A stretch of DNA of 37,571 nucleotides from positions 1 to 37,571 of the forward strand of contig NZ_LKBG01000242.1 of NCBI RefSeq assembly GCF_001402945.1, in the 5' to 3' direction. Below, piece after piece: positions 1,778-11,474 of the stretch. The position numbers were made by a program, and so were the translations under genes. Each line of letters begins with the position of its first letter. Within the stretch, counting starts at the first letter, position 1. Under the pieces are notes generated by a model, which saw only the letters and a program-made list of their open reading frames with translations, was not told the origin of the DNA and did not search any database. The stretch comes from Acidiplasma aeolicum. GTDB taxonomy: Archaea > Thermoplasmatota > Thermoplasmata > Thermoplasmatales > Thermoplasmataceae.

Positions 1778-1849
1778 GGGCCGGTAGATCAGCGGTAGAT
1801 CGCTTGCTTCGCAAGCAAGAGGGCTCGGGTTCAAATCCCGACCGGTCCA
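1778..1849 (+). tRNA. tRNA-Ala (anticodon CGC)
   Basis: A complete cloverleaf of 72 nt can be folded. The acceptor stem is GGGCCGG with CCGGTCC plus discriminator A. The D arm is GATC/GATC. The anticodon arm is CTTGC-TTCGCAA-GCAAG with anticodon CGC at 1810-1812, and the T arm is TCGGG/CCCGA with loop TTCAAAT. The third acceptor pair is G3:U70, the alanine identity element, which supports the isotype independently of the anticodon. CCA is not encoded. There is no intron. The 3' end from 1832 is repeated exactly at 11451, making this gene the attachment site of the downstream island; the gene remains intact after integration. Confidence 0.96.
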
Positions 1850-1898: not shown

Positions 1899-3188
1899 AT
1901 GACCATGCAGCCGAAGTATCGGAACCTACTTCTGGACGATGATGTACGAAGGTGGTTTGAGAACCTCAATGCGAAATCAGTCTTGACAGCAACCGTAGCC
2001 CTGAGGAATCTTGGTCACTATTGCGAGCTTACCATGACAACGCCAAAGGAAATCCTGAATAAAGCAATAACTAACGAGAAGGATTTCCGCTACGAGTTTA
2101 CGGATTTTGTCAGGAAGCTTGAGAAGGAGAGCAAGGCAGGGTCATACATTGCAAGGTTCAAGAAGGTTATATTATCGTGGCTCAAGTTTAACGATATCCG
2201 TTTGCAGTTAACCGTTAACATATCCGGGGAGAACGAAACACCGACAATCGTTAACGAGAGAGTTCCAAGCAAGGAGGAGTTGGCAAGGATTCTCAGGAAG
2301 GCAACTTCAAGAGGCAGGGTTGCCATAGCAATCATGGCATTCTCCGGACTCCGACCGGAATCTCTGGGCGATTATGAGGGCACGGACGGTCTCAGGCTTG
2401 GTGATCTCAAGGAACTGAAGTTGTCCGACGAAATCCAGTTTGACAAGATGCCGGTAAAAGTGATGGTGAAGAGCAAGCTGAGCAAGGCAAGACACCAGTA
2501 TTTCAGCTTCATTGGAGAGGAAGGTGCAACCTACATCAAGGAGTATCTTGAGGAGCGGAGGAAACAGGGAGAAGAGCTTACCTATGAATCTCCGTTATTG
2601 CAGTTTGACGTTAGAGGTACCAAGAAGAACGCATTCTTGAGGACAACGTTAGTAACTAGGGACATAAGGGAAGCAATAGAGAACTCGGGCCTGAAGATGC
2701 GGCCCTATGTCCTGAGGGCCTATTTCTCGACTGCTTTGGATATTGCAGAAAGCAAGGGCTTGATATCCCACCCCTGGAGGCAGTTCATCATGGGGCACAA
2801 GGGAGACATTGAGGCAAGATACAGCACTAACAAGAGGTTGCCACCAAGCGTTATTGAAGAGATGAGGGAAGCATACAAAAAGAGTACAAAATTCCTTGAA
2901 ACCAGACACGACGAGCTTGATGAGGACAATGCCCTCCTGTATTTGCAGCAACAGCTCCTATCTGCAGTGGGATACAAACTGGAAGAGATTGACAAAATGG
3001 ATCTCACCGATATAAGCAACGATGATTTCCAGAAGCTCCTTAGGAACAAGGTGGCAGGAGCCATGGCCAGCAACGGCTCGAAGCAAAGGCTCGTTCCCAT
3101 GAACGAGATAGAGAAACTGCTAGGCGAAGGATACGAGTTTCAGGCAGTCCTTCCCAACGGAAAGGCTATAATGAAGATGCCGTTTTGA
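1899..3188 (+). CDS. int: Tyrosine recombinase / integrase
   Basis: A 429-residue integrase placed directly after the att site in the tRNA. An N-terminal SAM-like core-binding domain covers about residues 10-105. The catalytic domain follows, with R152 (SGLRPE), a Y-x-x-R box at 270-273 (YVLRAYFST, Tyr where many relatives have His), the H300 box (IMGHKGD) and the nucleophile candidate Y308 (EARYS). A C-terminal extension of about 110 residues follows the catalytic domain. The gene is intact and its att site lies outside the coding region, so it is not of the SSV type that is split on integration. Its last 33 bp are duplicated at 5088-5120, and a decayed copy of its first 75 codons lies at 11517-11741. 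Base composition is richer in G+C than the flanking host genes. Confidence 0.92.
   Translation: MTMQPKYRNLLLDDDVRRWFENLNAKSVLTATVALRNLGHYCELTMTTPKEILNKAITNEKDFRYEFTDFVRKLEKESKAGSYIARFKKVILSWLKFNDIRLQLTVNISGENETPTIVNERVPSKEELARILRKATSRGRVAIAIMAFSGLRPESLGDYEGTDGLRLGDLKELKLSDEIQFDKMPVKVMVKSKLSKARHQYFSFIGEEGATYIKEYLEERRKQGEELTYESPLLQFDVRGTKKNAFLRTTLVTRDIREAIENSGLKMRPYVLRAYFSTALDIAESKGLISHPWRQFIMGHKGDIEARYSTNKRLPPSVIEEMREAYKKSTKFLETRHDELDEDNALLYLQQQLLSAVGYKLEEIDKMDLTDISNDDFQKLLRNKVAGAMASNGSKQRLVPMNEIEKLLGEGYEFQAVLPNGKAIMKMPF
3154..3186 (+). repeat. 33-bp direct repeat, copy 1 (integrase 3' end)
   Basis: Perfectly identical to 5088-5120. It covers the last 10 codons of the integrase and the first base of its stop codon. 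The segment between the two copies is the 3379-5049 cassette. Confidence 0.95.
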
Positions 3189-3378
3189 TGAATTCGTTCT
3201 ATCTGTCGAAAGAGAAATGTGGTATAATTGACTCTTATTCAGGTCTATGCTCACTGGTAATATATATATTATAATTCATTTTTAAGAAAATAAATTTTAG
3301 ATAACCTATTTTTCCTTTAAATTTATTCATTATTGTGAGTATAACAACATTTTTATAACAGGATTTTATTCATAAATT

Positions 3379-3789
3379 ATGACCTGTAGTAATTGTTTTG
3401 ATGCAAAGGGCAGAAAAATTACTAAAATAAGCGTGCCACACACAGAGACATACAAGGTAGGAGCAACAAACGTAACTGAGGGAGTTACGGTTGTGCAATT
3501 TAAGGAGGGCCCTAGTACAATCCTAAACTGGAAGTATATTATCGAAGGAGAAACTTCATCAAATGCATCTATTACATACATAATTCAGCATAGCGGAAAA
3601 ACAATAACCAATAAATTCAAGACAAAGTACATTGACACAATCAACGGTAAGAAAATTGTCCATGTTGATGGAAGCGGACTGAACTCGAACGGCAAGGTTA
3701 CAACTGCTAACCAAGATATCGCTCTCTCGAACGTAAAATCAGACCCAAATGCCATAGAGTGTCTTATTCCCATATATAGTTTAAGGTGA
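3379..3789 (+). CDS. Unknown protein, first gene of cassette 1
   Basis: A 136-residue protein I do not recognise. It opens with a Cys pair (MTCSNCF, C3 and C6). It continues as a Thr/Ser/Asn/Val-rich stretch that reads like beta-strands (residues 10-115) and ends with a third Cys near residue 128. There is no signal peptide or membrane segment. A TATA-like TTTTATAAC lies 19-28 bp upstream of ATG, so the transcript is probably leaderless. It heads a run of five closely packed genes (3379-5049), the others being membrane proteins; its stop overlaps the GTG alternative start of the next frame. By position it corresponds to the Cys-rich precursor that heads cassette 3, but I see no sequence similarity between them. 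A secreted or antagonistic role is inference only. Confidence 0.7.
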   Translation: MTCSNCFDAKGRKITKISVPHTETYKVGATNVTEGVTVVQFKEGPSTILNWKYIIEGETSSNASITYIIQHSGKTITNKFKTKYIDTINGKKIVHVDGSGLNSNGKVTTANQDIALSNVKSDPNAIECLIPIYSLR

Positions 3790-3794
3790 AATCA

Positions 3795-4322
3795 ATGAGA
3801 TATAGGCTGGCATACGTGAGCATTGGTATCGCAATAATGATCGTCGATATCGTTATCTCTCTAAAGTATCCAGAGATATTAATCTACAGTTATCTTGGTT
3901 CTTTTTTGGGGTTCTTTGTACCCTTTGGGATAGGCCTTTCACTTCTTTTATATGGCGTTTTTAGGGCTCATGATTATGGAATAAATCCAGTTATTGGAAT
4001 ATTCGGCTCCGGGGGCTTCACAAGAGTGTTGAGACAAAATAGGATTCAGGGTACCAGAATGTGGAAAACTGACCACGATATTCTTTCTGATCTGCCAGGT
4101 GCCGTAAAATCCCCTGATGGAAAGACCGTAGAATACGGTAATCTGTTCATCAGGAAGCCCTACGGAACAACAAAACATACAAGAAAACTTAACGAAGCGG
4201 CGAATAAATACCTTAGCGGTGAATTAGATGAGGAAGGCTTTTACAACTACGTCGGAAAGCATGGGGCGAAGGAAGAGCAAATGCTCGAATTTATTAAGAA
4301 ATTCAAAAATGACTATAAATGA
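3795..4322 (+). CDS. Membrane protein with cytosolic C-terminal domain, cassette 1
   Basis: A 175-residue protein. Two transmembrane helices (about residues 5-24 and 32-57) are followed by a hydrophilic, basic domain of about 115 residues. That domain contains a Gly-rich turn (IFGSGGFTRV) and a helical tail rich in Lys and Glu. I place the start at ATG 3795 because AAGGTG sits six bases upstream; a GTG nine bases earlier overlaps the previous stop. I know no family for it. It is the second gene of the cassette, as the MRY-starting membrane protein at 10630 is in cassette 3. Both begin MRY, but similarity beyond that is not evident. Immunity, transport or anchoring are all possible. Confidence 0.7.
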   Translation: MRYRLAYVSIGIAIMIVDIVISLKYPEILIYSYLGSFLGFFVPFGIGLSLLLYGVFRAHDYGINPVIGIFGSGGFTRVLRQNRIQGTRMWKTDHDILSDLPGAVKSPDGKTVEYGNLFIRKPYGTTKHTRKLNEAANKYLSGELDEEGFYNYVGKHGAKEEQMLEFIKKFKNDYK

Positions 4323-4331
4323 GGTGATAAA

Positions 4332-4580
4332 ATGGTTAAATTTTATCCAATAAACCGGACAATGACCGTTGGCACATTCATGTTTTTTGCGTCTTTGGTC
4401 GTTTTAGCAATAGGAGCTGCCTTTCATGCAGACGGAACGGTTTTAGCCGATAGTTTTCTCTTCGGAGGCTTTGCCTTCCTAATATCCATTGTACTACTAA
4501 CGGTTGGGGTGATATTAGGAGCCAGAAGCGGAAAATTGCAAAGAAGGGGCGATGAGATATTCCGCAAAAATAGAAAATAG
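4332..4580 (+). CDS. Small two-helix membrane protein, cassette 1
   Basis: An 82-residue protein with two hydrophobic helices (about 13-32 and 40-65) and a short basic tail (GARSGKLQRRGDEIFRKNRK). A good Shine-Dalgarno sequence, GAGGTGAT, precedes the ATG by four bases. Spacing to the upstream gene is 9 bp, so the genes are very likely co-transcribed and perhaps coupled. The basic end suggests both termini are cytosolic. I recognise no family. Small two-helix proteins of this kind recur in all cassettes of the island. Confidence 0.7.
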   Translation: MVKFYPINRTMTVGTFMFFASLVVLAIGAAFHADGTVLADSFLFGGFAFLISIVLLTVGVILGARSGKLQRRGDEIFRKNRK

Positions 4581-4609: not shown

Positions 4610-4873
4610 TTGATAGCAATAGTTACTGCAATTTTTTTCATCTCCGCAGCTGTAACCTTAGCATATTATCTGGTAGCGGTGTTCCCGAAAAGCCCGCTAG
4701 CACCTTTGATCTCATCAATCGTGTCTTGGATCGCTGGAGCTTTGTCACTTGTCTACCTTCTGTTACGATACAGGGTAAACCACGGGGACCAGTTATCCAA
4801 GTCAAACAGTGATCCTAATAAGGGAAAAGGTGAATCATTAACCAAGCTGGCAACTATCATTTTATCTTCATAA
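4610..4873 (+). CDS. Small two-helix membrane protein, cassette 1 (TTG start)
   Basis: An 87-residue frame with two hydrophobic helices (about 3-24 and 31-51) and a polar, Lys/Ser/Asn-rich tail. The only usual start is TTG 4610; the frame is open back to 4574 without ATG or GTG, so the true start may be an unusual codon. The second helix reads LISSIVSWIAGALSLVYLLL and resembles LISIVSIIAGVYFIL of the 11000-11224 protein. The two hold the same place in their cassettes, directly before the conserved GNSAH protein. This is probably a paralogous pair. Its 3' end overlaps the next gene by 37 bp. Confidence 0.55.
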   Translation: MIAIVTAIFFISAAVTLAYYLVAVFPKSPLAPLISSIVSWIAGALSLVYLLLRYRVNHGDQLSKSNSDPNKGKGESLTKLATIILSS

Positions 4874-5049
4874 CCGAGTTATCGTTGGTTATCCTTACAA
4901 TAAACGGATTGGCATTCGTTTACAGAGATGTAACGTCTTATCTGTTTGTGCTGGACATGGTTTACATAATAGGAAACAGTGCTCATCTCGTTGCACTGTC
5001 CATTTCATCAACTGGTCTCAGAATTGAAGATGAAAAGAAATCGACGTAG
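4837..5049 (+). CDS. Small membrane protein with GNSAH motif, cassette 1 (non-canonical start)
   Basis: A 70-residue frame found by comparison with the protein at 11221-11430. The two align from end to end and share GNSAH and VALSIS as identical blocks near residues 46-57. One or two membrane helices precede the motif, and the tail is charged. The position matching the paralogue's initiator Met is ATT at 4837, three bases after GGTGA; no ATG, GTG or TTG is available before the upstream stop at 4831-4833. Either ATT is used as the start, or this copy has lost its ATG and is a young pseudogene. It is the last gene of the cassette, just before the 33-bp integrase-tail repeat. Confidence 0.6.
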   Translation: MNQAGNYHFIFITELSLVILTINGLAFVYRDVTSYLFVLDMVYIIGNSAHLVALSISSTGLRIEDEKKST

Positions 5050-5066: not shown

Positions 5067-5087
5067 CCAGATTAAATTGCATGGTGT

Positions 5088-5120
5088 CCAACGGAAAGGC
5101 TATAATGAAGATGCCGTTTT
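5088..5120 (+). repeat. 33-bp direct repeat, copy 2 (detached integrase 3' end)
   Basis: Exact copy of 3154-3186, including the frame of the final codons. Here it runs into TAG instead of TGA. It is not joined to any integrase gene and lies 14 bp before the 5135 gene. It therefore marks the junction where the 3187-5087 segment was inserted or duplicated. Confidence 0.95.
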
Positions 5121-5134
5121 AGCCAACCGTATAG

Positions 5135-6264: not shown

Positions 6265-6672
6265 ATGGAAGTCGAAAAACTGTTCACTGTGGTATTTCCT
6301 GGCATGGCGCTGGTCATGATCCTGGCTGGTTTCCTTGATCCCAAGTTCTGGCCGATGCTCCTTCAATGGTTGGTATCGGGAAACGCGTTCCTGATGGTTC
6401 TTGCAGCTTCAGCATTCCTGATAGTTGTTGTCGGAGGCATTGTTCTGATCTACTATGCAATGATCGCTCTCGTGTTCATACTGATATTTTCTATTTTTGT
6501 CCTGGCTCCCCTGCATTTTCTTTATCTGGTTCTGGGATTCACATACTCGGTGATTCTGGCAGTTGTTATTGGTGCTGCTGTGCTGCTGTATCTCGTCGAG
6601 ACCAGAACGGTGAAGATCGAGCACCATACCATAACGCTCTCCGTGCACAGGAAGTTCATCGTCAAGAGGTAG
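6265..6672 (+). CDS. Multi-pass membrane protein next to the ATPase
   Basis: A 135-residue protein that is almost wholly hydrophobic between residues 8 and 110, with three to four membrane helices (about 8-24, 38-62, 64-90, 92-111), then a short basic, beta-like cytosolic tail (VKIEHHTITLSVHRKFIVKR). Stop and next start are only five bases apart. Placement immediately upstream of a HerA/FtsK-like ATPase suggests it provides the membrane pore or anchor for a DNA-pumping machine. That is inferred from context, not from a known family. Confidence 0.75.
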   Translation: MEVEKLFTVVFPGMALVMILAGFLDPKFWPMLLQWLVSGNAFLMVLAASAFLIVVVGGIVLIYYAMIALVFILIFSIFVLAPLHFLYLVLGFTYSVILAVVIGAAVLLYLVETRTVKIEHHTITLSVHRKFIVKR

Positions 6673-6677
6673 ACAGA

Positions 6678-8453
6678 ATGGATAAATATTTGCAATGCGA
6701 AGACAGGAATATGCGAGAAATGGGCTTTTCTGATCTGATCAATTCACGAAAGGTCCTATCCAGACCCATAATCGAATTGCCCATGAGGAATGAGGAAAGG
6801 CTATTCTATCATCCAGAGAAAAGGCTCAAGAGGTTCGCAGGTCATACTGCGATCGCATACGCAATCATACCTGATACCGAGCGAGGAAAGTACAGGAGAG
6901 AAGAATGCTCTCCAAAGGCATCTTCCCTCAGGGACTATGTGCTGCACAAGGGAAACAGGAATGTATCAATAACGGGAGTGTCAGGACAGGGCAAGAGCTA
7001 TCTAACCACCCACCTTATATCGATATTCAGTGACAAAGAAATAATCATATTCTCATTCAAGCCAAACGACCATGAATTGCATCTTGGGATTCCGGTCATA
7101 GATGCAAAAGAATGTCTTCCCAATCCATTCAGGGATGTAAATGCCTTCTCAGAGGCATACATGACTGCATTCTTTGGCGAGAAAACTTCATCCGGAATAC
7201 AGCTTCAACAGACCCCAGGATTCTTGCAGGAGCTTGCTTCTGAATGCAATAGCTGGAAGGATTTCATGAAGAGGCTGAATGATAGGAAGAGATCCGCGTC
7301 CAAGAATCAGGTCGAAGCATTGAACGCCATTGAACAGAACGTGAAGACTCTCGTAATTGAAGCTATGGGAAGCGTAACGCTGGGTAATGGCAGTATCGTC
7401 TTTGATTTCTCATCCCTACCAACAAAACAGGCTCAGAACTTCTATGCCGAGCTTATGCTTAGGCAGATATACAGGGAAATGGAAGAGCGCAGGAGAAACG
7501 ACGTTCTCATCCTGATAGACGAAGCCCATCGCCTGACCAAGTCATATCATACAATCCTGGATGTAATGTCCCGCGAGATAAGGGACAAGGGCATGCTCTG
7601 GATAATCACGCAGAATCTAATCGACATCCTGCCTGAGATGCGTGCCAATTTCGGTACAAAATTCACATTCAGGCTCGGAGATGCAGATCTAAACATGCTT
7701 TCCTATAACCCTTTAATGAAATACGCCGTAGAAATACTCCAGCCAAGGCAGTTCATTGACATAGAGTTCCCTGAAGGATCATCCTTCTCGCCGGTCTTCA
7801 CGTATGTATCAAACGGCCTGGAGCACAAGGAGATGCAAAAAGTCGCCGCAGTAGTATCGGGGCCAAGGAGGGAAGAGGGAGTCGGAGGGAGAGGGGAGGC
7901 TATCGACTACAGGAGGGAGGCCCTGGAAATCCTGAGCGAGAGAATGTCCTACGCGACAGAGATGGGAAAGATAATTGCCGAGAAGTACGGTATCACGAAG
8001 GATCAGGCGAAGCTCAGGCTGAAATCCGCACTGGAAGACCTAAAGAACAACAACGAAGTGGGCAGAGTGAAATACATCAGAGATGGAAAGCCAATAGTCA
8101 TGTACTATTCCAGGAGTCCAAATCTGACTAACCTTCACACTGGGATGCAAAGCCAGGTTGTGGGAATCCTGAATGATCTCGATGTAACCATCAATAGAAT
8201 ATCCACCACAGGAGAAAGGAGTGCATTCGACATCGAAACCGATTTCTTCATGGTTGAGATCGAAACAGGCCTGAAGCACAGTATGGAAGACCTGAAAGAC
8301 AGAATCAAGAGCACCAATCTTCGCGTGATAATCATAGTTCCTAACAAAGAACTCATTGACAAATATCAGGGACTTTGGGAAAACGTAGTAGTTACAACAA
8401 TAGATTCCTTCAGAGCACTCCTTGAGGTGCCAGAAAGGAATCGATCTAAGTAA
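6678..8453 (+). CDS. HerA/FtsK-type DNA-translocating ATPase with nuclease-like tail
   Basis: A 591-residue protein. Walker A GVSGQGKS lies at 100-107 and Walker B DVLILIDEAH at 275-284. A polar sensor TQN lies at 311-313, as in the DUF87/HerA, VirB4 and FtsK group of ring ATPases. A winged-helix-like stretch follows at about 412-475 (EKYGITKDQAKLRLKSALED). The last 100 residues have D518/D522, then VEIETGLK (E527, E529, K533) and the strand RVIIIVPN. This pattern resembles PD-(D/E)XK nuclease-like domains. The frame is open upstream to 6366, but that part overlaps the membrane protein in another frame; ATG 6678 gives clean spacing. The likely job is moving element DNA during transfer or packaging. 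The nuclease reading is tentative. Confidence 0.82.
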   Translation: MDKYLQCEDRNMREMGFSDLINSRKVLSRPIIELPMRNEERLFYHPEKRLKRFAGHTAIAYAIIPDTERGKYRREECSPKASSLRDYVLHKGNRNVSITGVSGQGKSYLTTHLISIFSDKEIIIFSFKPNDHELHLGIPVIDAKECLPNPFRDVNAFSEAYMTAFFGEKTSSGIQLQQTPGFLQELASECNSWKDFMKRLNDRKRSASKNQVEALNAIEQNVKTLVIEAMGSVTLGNGSIVFDFSSLPTKQAQNFYAELMLRQIYREMEERRRNDVLILIDEAHRLTKSYHTILDVMSREIRDKGMLWIITQNLIDILPEMRANFGTKFTFRLGDADLNMLSYNPLMKYAVEILQPRQFIDIEFPEGSSFSPVFTYVSNGLEHKEMQKVAAVVSGPRREEGVGGRGEAIDYRREALEILSERMSYATEMGKIIAEKYGITKDQAKLRLKSALEDLKNNNEVGRVKYIRDGKPIVMYYSRSPNLTNLHTGMQSQVVGILNDLDVTINRISTTGERSAFDIETDFFMVEIETGLKHSMEDLKDRIKSTNLRVIIIVPNKELIDKYQGLWENVVVTTIDSFRALLEVPERNRSK

Positions 8454-8523: not shown

Positions 8524-8814
8524 ATGGAAGGAAATGTAGTGTTTTCTAAAGAAGGCGTAAAGTTACTGTCTGAGGTAGAAACTCTATCCGGAAGAAAAAC
8601 GCACGAAGAGTTCTACCAATGGGATGAATTTTCTTGGGACATTATTAAGGGATACCAAAACATAAATGGAAGTTACACTAAGAACGAGAAGGGCGAACTG
8701 CACTCGATCGAGCTCCAAATCAGAAGTTGTGCCGAAACATCAACTTCGACCATCAAGAATGAGCCTAGGGACGGGGGAGCCGAGTACATATGCCAAAAGG
8801 TAGGTGTATGCTAG
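8524..8814 (+). CDS. Small protein with Cys-containing tail, first gene of cassette 2
   Basis: A 96-residue protein of unknown family. Residues 1-65 are polar and mixed. The last 30 residues hold three cysteines (near 69, 90 and 96) with Ser/Thr and Gly between, ending YICQKVGVC. The frame is open back to 8422, but that stretch overlaps the ATPase; ATG 8524 sits at the right distance from a TATA element for a leaderless transcript. No signal peptide is seen. Two small membrane proteins follow, so the layout (soluble Cys-bearing lead gene, then membrane genes) matches the other cassettes of the island. A secreted peptide precursor is possible but unproven. Confidence 0.6.
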   Translation: MEGNVVFSKEGVKLLSEVETLSGRKTHEEFYQWDEFSWDIIKGYQNINGSYTKNEKGELHSIELQIRSCAETSTSTIKNEPRDGGAEYICQKVGVC

Positions 8815-8834: not shown

Positions 8835-9086
8835 ATGATTATAGTGGTAAAATATCATAAACCAGTTAGTTATTTGAGTCTTATCGCAGGTTTCCTCTTC
8901 ATAGCGTTTTTATTAATCGGAGCAATTGCGATAATGGTCATACATTCACATGTTCTGGCCTTTATTGATCTGGGTTTGTTACCGGTAATCGTAATTGTGG
9001 GAACAGTCGGATATATAAAAAGCCTAAAAAGCGGTTCAAGACAAGAGAGAATGAGAGAACTCTTTGAAAATTCAAAGAGGAAGTGA
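8835..9086 (+). CDS. Small two-helix membrane protein, cassette 2
   Basis: An 83-residue protein with two strong hydrophobic helices (about 14-38 and 42-62) and a basic tail (KSLKSGSRQERMRELFENSKRK). The tail resembles in character that of the 4332 protein of cassette 1 (GARSGKLQRRGDEIFRKNRK), and both end in R-K or N-R-K. It starts 20 bp after the previous stop. No family recognised. Possible immunity or transport component, by context only. Confidence 0.65.
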   Translation: MIIVVKYHKPVSYLSLIAGFLFIAFLLIGAIAIMVIHSHVLAFIDLGLLPVIVIVGTVGYIKSLKSGSRQERMRELFENSKRK

Positions 9087-9089
9087 AAA

Positions 9090-9299
9090 ATGGTTTCAAA
9101 ACACGTTCACAGGTATATCATAGGTGGGATGGCCATATTTTTCATAGTTTATGTGCTTGTAGCAAATGCCTATCTTAGTTTCAGGGACTTTGCACTGTAT
9201 GCGGCGTTGCCTTCATTAGTGATAATGATTGCTCTTGCCTTTGTTTACCGCTATCTTGAAAACAGTATCAAATTTGAGCGGAGGACAGGAACTCAATAA
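9090..9299 (+). CDS. Small two-helix membrane protein, cassette 2
   Basis: A 69-residue protein with helices at about 9-28 and 36-53 and a charged end (RYLENSIKFERRTGTQ). It begins three bases after the stop of the 8835 gene, with GAGGAAGTGA as ribosome-binding sequence. The two are therefore co-translated. The loop (NAYLSFRDFALY) faintly recalls that of the GNSAH proteins, but the GNSAH block itself is absent. No family recognised. Confidence 0.65.
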   Translation: MVSKHVHRYIIGGMAIFFIVYVLVANAYLSFRDFALYAALPSLVIMIALAFVYRYLENSIKFERRTGTQ

Positions 9300-9333: not shown

Positions 9334-9483
9334 ATGGTATTAATCAAAAAAGAAAGGAGGAATAGCAGAATAGACTATGACTATTGGAATGAAGTACAGC
9401 GGTCTCACGTTTTCTCACGAAATGAACGGGAGGATAGGAAAGGAATCAATAAGCAGATGGTGGAGCTTCTGGAAGAGCAGTAA
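9334..9483 (+). CDS. Possible small basic protein (49 aa)
   Basis: A short frame, too small for confidence, encoding a highly charged, helical peptide (Arg/Glu/Lys-rich, ending MVELLEEQ). GGAGG occurs inside rather than before it. The ten codons directly upstream, in frame but closed by TAG, read LKEKYEGLWK. This resembles DKYQGLWEN near the end of the ATPase at 6678-8453, so the area may be debris of a second ATPase gene rather than a functional gene. Confidence 0.3.
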   Translation: MVLIKKERRNSRIDYDYWNEVQRSHVFSRNEREDRKGINKQMVELLEEQ

Positions 9484-9722
9484 TTCCTATTAAACTAAAA
9501 GACACTGCCCCCAAAATGTTACACTTGTAACAAGTAATACCTGTAATAACCTTTGAAATGTGACTAATGTGCTACAGAGCAGATTGTGCTATTTTGGTAA
9601 GTATCCCCTCAAAACGTTAATCAAATCCCGGCGCATCTTCTATATATTAAAAAATGCCCTGAACTACAGGGTTTACTAATAAATGTGAATATATTTATAT
9701 AAGATGATTTGCTTCTTTTATT
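9484..9722. promoter_or_regulatory. Intergenic control region before the Cys-rich precursor gene
   Basis: A 239-bp region without a gene. It holds, in order: a perfect palindrome GTTACA-CT-TGTAAC (9518-9531); the element-end repeat copy A (from 9601); an inverted repeat CCCTG-AACTA-CAGGG (9657-9671); and the TATA box ATATTTATATAA (9691-9702), which is 21-32 bp before the ATG at 9723. The two palindromes are candidate operators for the precursor gene. Confidence 0.5.
9601..9648 (+). repeat. Element-end repeat, copy A (decayed att)
   Basis: The first 30 bases match 11430-11459 at 26 positions, including CAAATCCCG, the first nine bases of the att core. After that the tRNA-like sequence breaks down. 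The stretch ending CTATATAT also matches copy C near 12230. It is read as the right end of an earlier or nested insertion. Confidence 0.6.
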
Positions 9723-10604
9723 ATGGGTAGCAGAAAGCAGGAACTCACAATGTCAGAAGTAGTACGAGTGACAAAGGATAAAGATGAAATAAAAACTGAG
9801 GTTATTACTTACAAGAAACCTAGAAAGATCTCCCCAAAAATTCAAACGCCTCAAACGTTTGCTAATAGCGGTGTGAAAAACATTTCTCTAATTTTTTCTG
9901 ATAAAACTCAAAATTACACCCTATCATTTCGAGAGATGGATTATGAACTTTCAGAGAAAAAAATATCTCAGTCTGGAAAAGCTTATTCATTATACTTTGA
10001 GATTGCCGATGATGAGGCCATAATATACTTAGAAGGGAATATAGTTCCACTTGAAAACAACAAAGGTGCATTGTTTCTATCTATCAACGTTTCACCAAAG
10101 GACCCAACCCATGTTGACCTTTTCGCTTTACCTATAAGCATAAATTATAACGGAGACTTTTTATCGGTTGCAAAGGACTTAAGTTTTGTTATAAATAAAT
10201 TAGATAATGGTGCCTCAGAAAAGAGAAAGTGGATTTACAGTAAAATGGAGTCTCTTCTGAGCGCATTTCCTGAAGCATATGAAAGCAATCGAAATAAATT
10301 GAAGGCAATTGATGTGATGGAACTATCTTACAAGGTGACCTTAATGGATTTTAATTTTACATGTTGCCTGGAGAATGCATTGAGTCTCACGGATTGCGTT
10401 CTTAGTGTTCCTGACATTGAGGAGATATGCGCAGAGTGTCTAGTTTTACCAGATTGTCTTGCAGCTTGCTTTGATTTTTTAACGTTACCTGCTTGCCTTA
10501 TATGCTTTAGTCTTGATGTTCTTGCGTGTGCCTATTGTATTTATAAAGCAGGAGAGTGCACTGAGGATGCGTATAATGTAATTCAATGTTGCACTGGGGC
10601 TTAA
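9723..10604 (+). CDS. Cys-rich C-terminal protein, candidate archaeocin precursor (halocin C8-like layout)
   Basis: A 293-residue protein. Residues 1-45 are polar and basic. Residues 50-205 look like a mixed beta/alpha domain with no cysteine. The last 80 residues (214-293) hold all 14 cysteines, at 214, 215, 225, 236, 239, 245, 249, 258, 261, 269, 272, 279, 289 and 290, in short hydrophobic helices. The halocin C8 precursor has this plan: about 207 residues acting as immunity protein, then a 76-residue mature peptide with ten cysteines. I therefore propose a secreted peptide antibiotic with a fused immunity domain. No Tat or Sec signal is visible, unlike the haloarchaeal protein. Three coupled membrane genes follow. 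A leaderless promoter and two palindromes lie upstream. The family link is by architecture, not by residue alignment. Confidence 0.7.
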   Translation: MGSRKQELTMSEVVRVTKDKDEIKTEVITYKKPRKISPKIQTPQTFANSGVKNISLIFSDKTQNYTLSFREMDYELSEKKISQSGKAYSLYFEIADDEAIIYLEGNIVPLENNKGALFLSINVSPKDPTHVDLFALPISINYNGDFLSVAKDLSFVINKLDNGASEKRKWIYSKMESLLSAFPEAYESNRNKLKAIDVMELSYKVTLMDFNFTCCLENALSLTDCVLSVPDIEEICAECLVLPDCLAACFDFLTLPACLICFSLDVLACAYCIYKAGECTEDAYNVIQCCTGA

Positions 10605-10629
10605 TAAGATTGAGAAAAGGGAAGTAAAT

Positions 10630-11025
10630 ATGCGATATGAGAACATCTATAAGTCCCTTCTTTTTTATATTGTTGGTTTAGCTCTTCTATATGTGTCAAT
10701 ATTTCTATCTAACAACCTAAAGTTTAATGGAAATTTCATATCGGCATTGCCAATAGTTTTGCCATTGGTTTTTTCCATAGCCTCTATTGGGGTGGCAGTT
10801 ATTTTTATAATGGAAAAAGACTCCCCTTGGCTTTTCAGAACTGGCATGATGAGTTTAGTTAGTGGAATCACTTTATTTTCGTTCGGGGTTCTAGCATTTT
10901 ACTTGGGAGTAAAATCCTTAGTATGGGCAGGTTCATTTGTAATTGGTATAATGTTAATTTTCGCTGCGATGGTTAGATTATTCATTCAGGGTGGTTTGAG
11001 TGCATACAGAAAAAGCAGGAATTAG
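10630..11025 (+). CDS. Four-helix membrane protein, cassette 3
   Basis: A 131-residue protein with four hydrophobic helices (about 8-26, 38-61, 70-92 and 96-118) and a short basic end (AYRKSRN). It begins 25 bp after the Cys-rich precursor and its 3' end overlaps the next gene by 26 bp, so the cassette is translated as a unit. The protein starts MRY like the second gene of cassette 1. I recognise no family. By analogy with bacteriocin loci it may export the peptide or protect the producer, but the sequence alone does not decide this. Confidence 0.75.
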   Translation: MRYENIYKSLLFYIVGLALLYVSIFLSNNLKFNGNFISALPIVLPLVFSIASIGVAVIFIMEKDSPWLFRTGMMSLVSGITLFSFGVLAFYLGVKSLVWAGSFVIGIMLIFAAMVRLFIQGGLSAYRKSRN

Positions 11026-11224
11026 GGCATCATTCCTATCAACATTTGGAATTATATTTCTAACTTTAGGTGTTGTGGGTTTATTAGGTTTATTTAATGT
11101 TCAAATATTGTATTCATTTGGTACTTTGATTTCCATAGTTTCCATTATCGCTGGAGTATATTTTATTCTGAGTGCTCACATAAGTAGGAAGAATAGAGTT
11201 AAAAGGAGTGCCAGACAATCATGA
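11000..11224 (+). CDS. Small two-helix membrane protein, cassette 3 (GTG start)
   Basis: A 74-residue protein starting at GTG 11000 inside the previous gene. Two hydrophobic helices (about 12-32 and 38-60) precede a basic tail (SRKNRVKRSARQS). The second helix resembles that of the 4610 protein in cassette 1, at the same position before the GNSAH gene. Its stop overlaps the next start as ATGA, the classical coupling arrangement. Function unknown. Confidence 0.65.
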   Translation: MHTEKAGIRASFLSTFGIIFLTLGVVGLLGLFNVQILYSFGTLISIVSIIAGVYFILSAHISRKNRVKRSARQS

Positions 11225-11430
11225 ATCGTTATGTATACCACTTAATTCTTGTTATAGTTGTATCCATTGTTGTTCTGGCGATCAACATAATGGCATTCAG
11301 GTCAAAGAACGTTTCTGATTATCTCTACATATTTGATCTAACATATGCCGCAGGGAACAGTGCTCATTTTGTTGCTCTATCAATATCTGATAAGGGAATT
11401 TCTGTGAAGGACGAAGTAAATGAGAAATAG
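11221..11430 (+). CDS. Small membrane protein with GNSAH motif, cassette 3
   Basis: A 69-residue protein. A strong N-terminal membrane helix (about 6-27) is followed by a loop, a second weaker hydrophobic stretch containing GNSAHFVALSIS (about 46-57), and a charged end (DEVNEK). It is a paralogue of the product of 4837-5049 over its full length, and is the only gene clearly shared by two cassettes. ATG overlaps the previous stop (ATGA). A conserved protein in cassettes with otherwise different lead genes could be a common immunity or transport factor. The stop codon touches the element-end repeat. Confidence 0.72.
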   Translation: MNRYVYHLILVIVVSIVVLAINIMAFRSKNVSDYLYIFDLTYAAGNSAHFVALSISDKGISVKDEVNEK

Positions 11431-11474
11431 TATTCCCTTAAAACATTAAGCAAATCCCGACCGGTCCATTTAAT
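11430..11474 (+). repeat. Element-end repeat copy B with attR core
   Basis: GTATTCCCTTAAAACATTAA leads directly into the 24-bp att core (11451-11474), identical to the tRNA-Ala 3' end at 1832-1855. This is the best-preserved right junction of the island. Confidence 0.85.

Follow-up and report, generated by a model that had tools for sequence, protein, structure and literature searches.

A likely mobile archaeocin cassette of Thermoplasmatales with a cysteine-rich acidic candidate peptide and a separate putative immunity protein

Among the described archaeocins, halocin C8 from haloarchaea, a peptide with ten cysteines, offers the closest comparison for the locus analyzed here. In 2019 Makarova et al. 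reportedly extended the halocin C8 family to a wide range of archaea, and some of the proteins discussed below may already be listed in that work. In bacteria, bacteriocin immunity genes are known to be kept as orphans after the toxin gene has been lost. The halocin C8 precursor ProC8 is exported by the Tat pathway (PMC11509114), and for the sulfolobicins two proteins bearing signal peptides have been reported (PMC8628083). Halocins and sulfolobicins are the only described archaeocins named in one review-type introduction (PMC10105419), and in a study of Thermoplasmatales a database search of E-plasma revealed no loci for bacteriocins (PMC10354927).

The locus lies in Acidiplasma aeolicum, in a window of 37,571 nucleotides (the whole stretch of DNA that was analyzed; features written below with two dots between their coordinates are on its forward strand). 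Its central gene, T1 (9723..10604, ATG start), encodes a precursor of 293 residues with a predicted β-rich N-domain and a Cys-rich tail. The first-pass annotation had pointed to a protein lacking cysteine in residues 1-213 and holding 14 in the last 80, and the translated reading frame bears this out, with cysteines at positions 214, 215, 225, 236, 239, 245, 249, 258, 261, 269, 272, 279, 289 and 290; such a placement of 14 out of 14 would arise by chance with P ~5e-9. We divide the precursor into a fast-drifting N-domain with predicted β-strands and no cysteine (residues 1-208, 9723..10346) and a tail that is nearly frozen among homologues and is the proposed mature peptide (residues 209-293, 10347..10601). 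The tail carries three CxxC pairs (236-239, 258-261 and 269-272) and 13 acidic residues to a single basic one. The start of T1 is well supported, since its frame is closed by a stop five codons before the ATG at 9723 and a TATA-like promoter element (9688..9704) precedes the ATG by about 27 nt, consistent with a leaderless start. Nor is T1 an assembly accident, because the gene recurs with 99-100% identity in three other genomes belonging to other genera or another family.

The remark in the same annotation that no Sec or Tat signal is visible also holds, as the best 17-residue stretch within the first 77 residues reaches a hydropathy of 0.29 and an RR pair is absent. Neither an RR motif nor a hydrophobic N-terminal segment was found in any of the precursors of types T1 to T4 (see below). 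The AlphaFold model of T1 is poor (pLDDT 51, tail below 45) and places strands before helices, in the same order as the model of T3, which is usable (pLDDT 77.5, one good model out of five) and shows β-strands followed by a helical bundle. Neither T1 nor T3 has a significant match in the PDB by sequence and fold, the T3 model is without a match in a viral fold library, and phage, plasmid and viral-contig collections contained no T1 homologues at the sensitivity used. Pfam and NCBIfam detected no modifying enzyme of the lanthipeptide or sactipeptide RiPP type among the cassette reading frames, and PADLOC matched none of its defence families. Weak tail matches in ten genomes were dismissed as chance, being short and weak, with internal stops or in unrelated frames.

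The layout of T1, a Cys-poor N-domain followed by a C-terminal Cys-rich peptide of about 75-85 residues, is that of the halocin C8 precursor; the Tat signal peptide of that precursor is missing. The profile search proposed earlier gave no match of T1 to TIGR04449, the halocin C8-like domain (a model of 69 positions with a cut-off of 24 bits), even at an E-value of 10. Alignment of the T1 tail with halocin C8 domains by hhalign was likewise not significant (P ~0.2), and in shuffling experiments T1 scored z 0.4-0.8 (p 0.2-0.3) against five tails of the family, compared with z 8-22 for the T2 and T4 controls. Direct membership of T1 in the halocin C8 family was rejected on these grounds. The other precursors behave differently on TIGR04449: T3 scores 53-55 bits (E 6e-14) over the full model length in genomes G061, G064 and G007 and in I-plasma, T2 is borderline at 20-25 bits and T4 is borderline at 17-19 bits. 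A weak halocin C8-domain match above the cut-off (27.5 bits) was also seen in another family of the class (genome G407, L103 1513-1959). In its apparent way of working T1 resembles a halocin C8 system, but none of the comparisons made supports its membership in that family. Of the original reading, an archaeocin-type system with accessory membrane genes, an island location and no classical signal peptide is supported, and the sister cassettes that share accessory genes with T1 do carry halocin C8-domain precursors; the assignment of the T1 tail itself to the halocin C8 family is not supported.

The sister cassettes were found with the small membrane gene m3 as bait, and the types T1 to T4 were defined in this analysis. 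T2 consists of a 213-residue precursor, membrane proteins of 175 and 84 residues and m3; T3 of a 206-residue precursor and membrane proteins of 83 and 69 residues; and T4 of a 203-residue precursor, a 192-residue membrane protein and m3. The types are tied together by their accessory genes. The m3 protein of T1 is 61% identical to that of T2 and 88% to that of T4, the 84-residue protein of T2 is homologous to the 83-residue protein of T3 (E 1e-6), and an 81-residue protein of T2 to the 69-residue protein of T3 (E 3e-8). T1 has both m3 and a leaderless promoter in common with other types, with the TATA-to-ATG spacing being the same in T2, T3 and T4. In G061 and I-plasma, T3 directly precedes T1 at a distance of 0.9 kb, and in G064 and G007, where insertions intervene, it is 2-6 kb upstream; T1 and T2 are adjacent in G018. 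Since Thermoplasmatales harbour at least four types of cassette, the earlier statement that no such system is known in a thermoacidophile fails for this lineage.

Parts of the sister cassettes are also present in the window. The T2 precursor (3379..3789) is reduced to an N-domain of 136 residues, its halocin C8-like Cys-rich tail being gone after residue 130, and is followed by an accessory protein of 175 residues with two transmembrane segments and a soluble C-terminal part (3795..4322), a membrane protein of 82-84 residues (4332..4580) and an m3 homologue whose frame is open and which has lost the ATG of other copies (4840..5049). The T2 accessory genes have remained open with dN/dS of 0.21-0.33, estimated from two copies that share the tail deletion. 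Of the T3 precursor only the last 14 codons are left (8772..8814, ending in ...GAEYICQKVGVC), preceding accessory membrane proteins of 83 residues (8835..9086, the homologue of the 84-residue T2 protein) and 69 residues (9090..9299) and a 49-residue reading frame conserved with the T3 cassette (9334..9483). By its gene content the window appears as a partly disarmed array, in which T1 is the sole intact precursor and the membrane genes of T2 and T3 have been kept.

Across the types, the precursors combine a nearly invariant tail with a drifting N-domain. In T1 homologues of 72% overall identity, all 14 cysteines are retained and the tail is 93-94% identical, compared with 63% for the N-domain. 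The corresponding values are 98% and 72% in T2 and 98% and 81% in T3. Synonymous sites have turned over in T1 and T2, in T1 across both tail and N-domain. In the T3 tail synonymous divergence is also low, so that the contrast between tail and N-domain may be partly local in this type. A C-terminal part held constant while the leader changes is consistent with a mature peptide.

Downstream of T1, after a gap of 25 nt, follow the three small membrane genes noted in the first-pass annotation, and their overlaps are confirmed from the reading frames. The first, m1 (10630..11025), encodes 131 residues with four TM-like segments; m2 (11000..11224; 74 residues, two TM) starts with a GTG inside m1; and m3 (11221..11430; 69 residues, one TM, GNSAHFVALSIS motif), homologous to the m3 of T2 and T4, starts at an ATGA. 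The T1 precursor is present in six of the 77 genomes of the family, compared with 19 for m1. Of the 13 other genomes with m1, one has the locus broken by a contig end (G047) and two hold diverged m1 relatives (G008 and G021); m1 is kept as an orphan in 12-13 of 77 genomes. Next to these orphans, m2 is in most cases damaged or gone and m3 is usually missing. Both G019 and G020 are closed genomes in which m1 stands alone directly 3' of rfcS and the same tRNA-Ala as in the window, and in G020 the homology begins at the final codons of the lost precursor. Pairs of orphan m1 genes show dN/dS of 0.12-0.29, a sign of purifying selection, and in G061 an additional m1 copy follows a precursor stub of 16 residues.

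The idea that immunity resides in a fused N-domain of T1 is therefore doubtful. Immunity more likely lies in m1, because m1 has been kept alone in 12-13 genomes and an orphan T1 N-domain in none of the 77, which also argues against the halocin C8 arrangement with the N-domain as immunity protein. Retention of m1 without the precursor is the footprint expected of an immunity gene, an indication rather than proof. Some copies sit in other accessory-gene clusters, so that m1 is perhaps not T1-specific. In G024, G027, G014 and G062 (L147, L148, L149 and L150), small membrane genes encoding 187-194 and in some cases 72 residues are followed by m1 in clusters devoid of a precursor, which are possibly immunity-gene islands. 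As an immunity gene m3 is not favoured, given its solitary chromosomal copies in unrelated contexts and its loss beside most orphan m1 genes. Such solitary m3-like genes (MKKSIYAIITVGIIS...GNSAHLVALSLSS), unlinked to precursors, were located at L072 3352-3558 and L073 6235-6441 and in L074, L075 and L076.

The genomic surroundings point to mobility. A tRNA-Ala gene (CGC; 1778..1849) provides the integration site with an att core at 1832-1849 and is followed by an integrase-like gene (1899..3188, a weak PHROG integrase match). Beyond the T1 cassette, attR (11451..11468) repeats 18 nt of the tRNA-Ala 3' end without a mismatch, after which an integrase-gene remnant extends to about 11716, and an att-like repeat precedes the cassette (9600..9630, 87% identical to 11429-11459). 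From these signatures (tRNA-Ala, integrase-like gene, the 18-nt copy, the second integrase remnant and the att-like repeat) the region from tRNA-Ala to attR is read as an integrative island or the tandem remnants of several. The island also encodes a VirB4/HerA-like ATPase (6672-8453), 77% identical in L013. Copies of about 37 nt of the integrase gene 3' end flank cassettes on both sides (3150-3189 and 5085-5122 in the window, 10104-10140 and 11931-11979 in L013), and cassette order varies among genomes. On this basis the cassettes may be mobile units beside the integrase, in loose analogy to gene cassettes. Four tandem att-like repeats of the tRNA-Ala 3' end surround cassettes in G007 (L012 7285, 9263, 10192 and 13427), the same genome in which an insertion splits the T1 tail near codon 281 and m1-m3 remain. 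Another genus shares a block of 2.6 kb at 99.96% identity, which indicates recent transfer. Outside the family, the T1 precursor was found in the I-plasma genome and, in a version of 26% identity, in two more members of the order.

Taken together, we consider it likely that the locus is a mobile archaeocin cassette of Thermoplasmatales with m1 as the immunity gene. In the mechanism we propose, the T1 tail would be cut off to yield a disulfide-stapled helical peptide, which the β-rich leader would keep soluble or inactive in the cytoplasm until it leaves by a route that is neither Sec nor Tat. The four-helix membrane protein m1 would give immunity, which would explain its survival after loss of the precursor, and m2 and m3 could help in export or protection. 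A hypothetical acid switch might control the tail: charged and inert at cytoplasmic pH, its acidic residues would be protonated at an external pH of about 1-2, rendering the peptide neutral and membrane-active and killing related cells that lack immunity.

Several other functions have to be weighed against a secreted antibiotic. The tail might stay in the membrane of the producer as a self-directed toxin or exclusion module of the island, blocking competing elements or killing cells that lose the island, with m1 as the antitoxin. The absence of a secretion signal in every cassette type would suit such a role, as would residence on integrative islands close to an integrase and to the VirB4/HerA-like ATPase, and a toxin and its neutralizer are also compatible with a retained m1. 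However, the halocin C8 domains of the sister cassettes suggest a secreted peptide, and an external threat accounts better for a solitary m1 where the site is otherwise empty than does an antitoxin deprived of its toxin, so we regard this reading as unlikely. We give about half as much credence to a pilin-like or adhesin-like component of the cell surface or conjugation apparatus, with the disulfide-rich tail as its anchor and m1-m3 as assembly factors. Although a hydrophobic helical tail, small membrane partners and a transfer-like ATPase would fit such a component, the precursors are also found in cassettes separate from the ATPase and at relic sites, swapping, truncation and deletion affect the types independently while m1 is kept, and the link to halocin C8 would be left unexplained.

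Two further functions appear slightly less probable still. The three CxxC pairs and the conservation of all cysteines could indicate a cytosolic or membrane metal or redox protein binding a metal or Fe-S cluster; this is countered by the absence of any metal-protein family match for T1 in Pfam/NCBIfam, the patchy and mobile distribution (six of 77 genomes), the halocin C8-like precursors of T2-T4 and the placement of the cysteines in hydrophobic helices. To an equally small degree we credit a secreted signalling peptide, since the very strong conservation of the tail fits a receptor ligand; against it stands the persistence of m1, in the manner of an immunity gene, where the peptide is absent. 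The antibiotic reading accommodates these observations best.

A bolder version of the antibiotic reading, which we put forward tentatively and at somewhat less than even chances, holds that T1 represents a class of its own among archaeal peptide antibiotics, new, without relationship in sequence to halocin C8 and swapped into the same cassette system: an acidic helical peptide with 14 cysteines, activated by external acidity, exported without Sec or Tat and accompanied by a distinct four-TM immunity protein, which persists by itself at tRNA sites throughout the family. If the antibiotic reading as such is right, peptide warfare of the halocin C8 type would extend to the thermoacidophilic Thermoplasmatales, with a different immunity logic based on a separate membrane protein and without a classical export signal. 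Orphan m1 genes would then amount to a list of predicted resistant strains, which makes the idea testable by simple inhibition assays among cultured Thermoplasmatales.

Compared with known systems, T1 resembles halocin C8 (ProC8/HalI) in having a precursor encoded by one gene (293 residues versus 283 in halocin C8) and a Cys-poor N-domain followed by a Cys-rich hydrophobic peptide of about 80 residues. It differs in the 14 instead of ten cysteines of its strongly acidic tail, which has no detectable sequence similarity to halocin C8, in lacking the Tat signal of ProC8, and in an immunity function that apparently belongs to a separate membrane protein rather than to a fused N-domain. The halocin C8-like plasmid proteins of haloarchaea, represented by WP_197427780.1 from Halorubrum trapanicum, have the same domain as the tails of T3, T2 and T4. 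Unlike T1-T4, this protein has an RR pair before a hydrophobic stretch near its N-terminus, its tail contains four basic residues and one acidic, compared with 11-16 acidic and one to three basic residues in T1-T4, and no genes like m1-m3 are annotated next to it. With the sulfolobicins (SulA/SulB) of Sulfolobales, T1 would have in common that it is an archaeocin of thermoacidophiles; those proteins are not known to have a fused Cys-rich tail. Finally, m1 parallels the orphan immunity genes of bacteria in being kept after the loss of the toxin gene, and departs from them as an archaeal four-TM protein with no match to any family.
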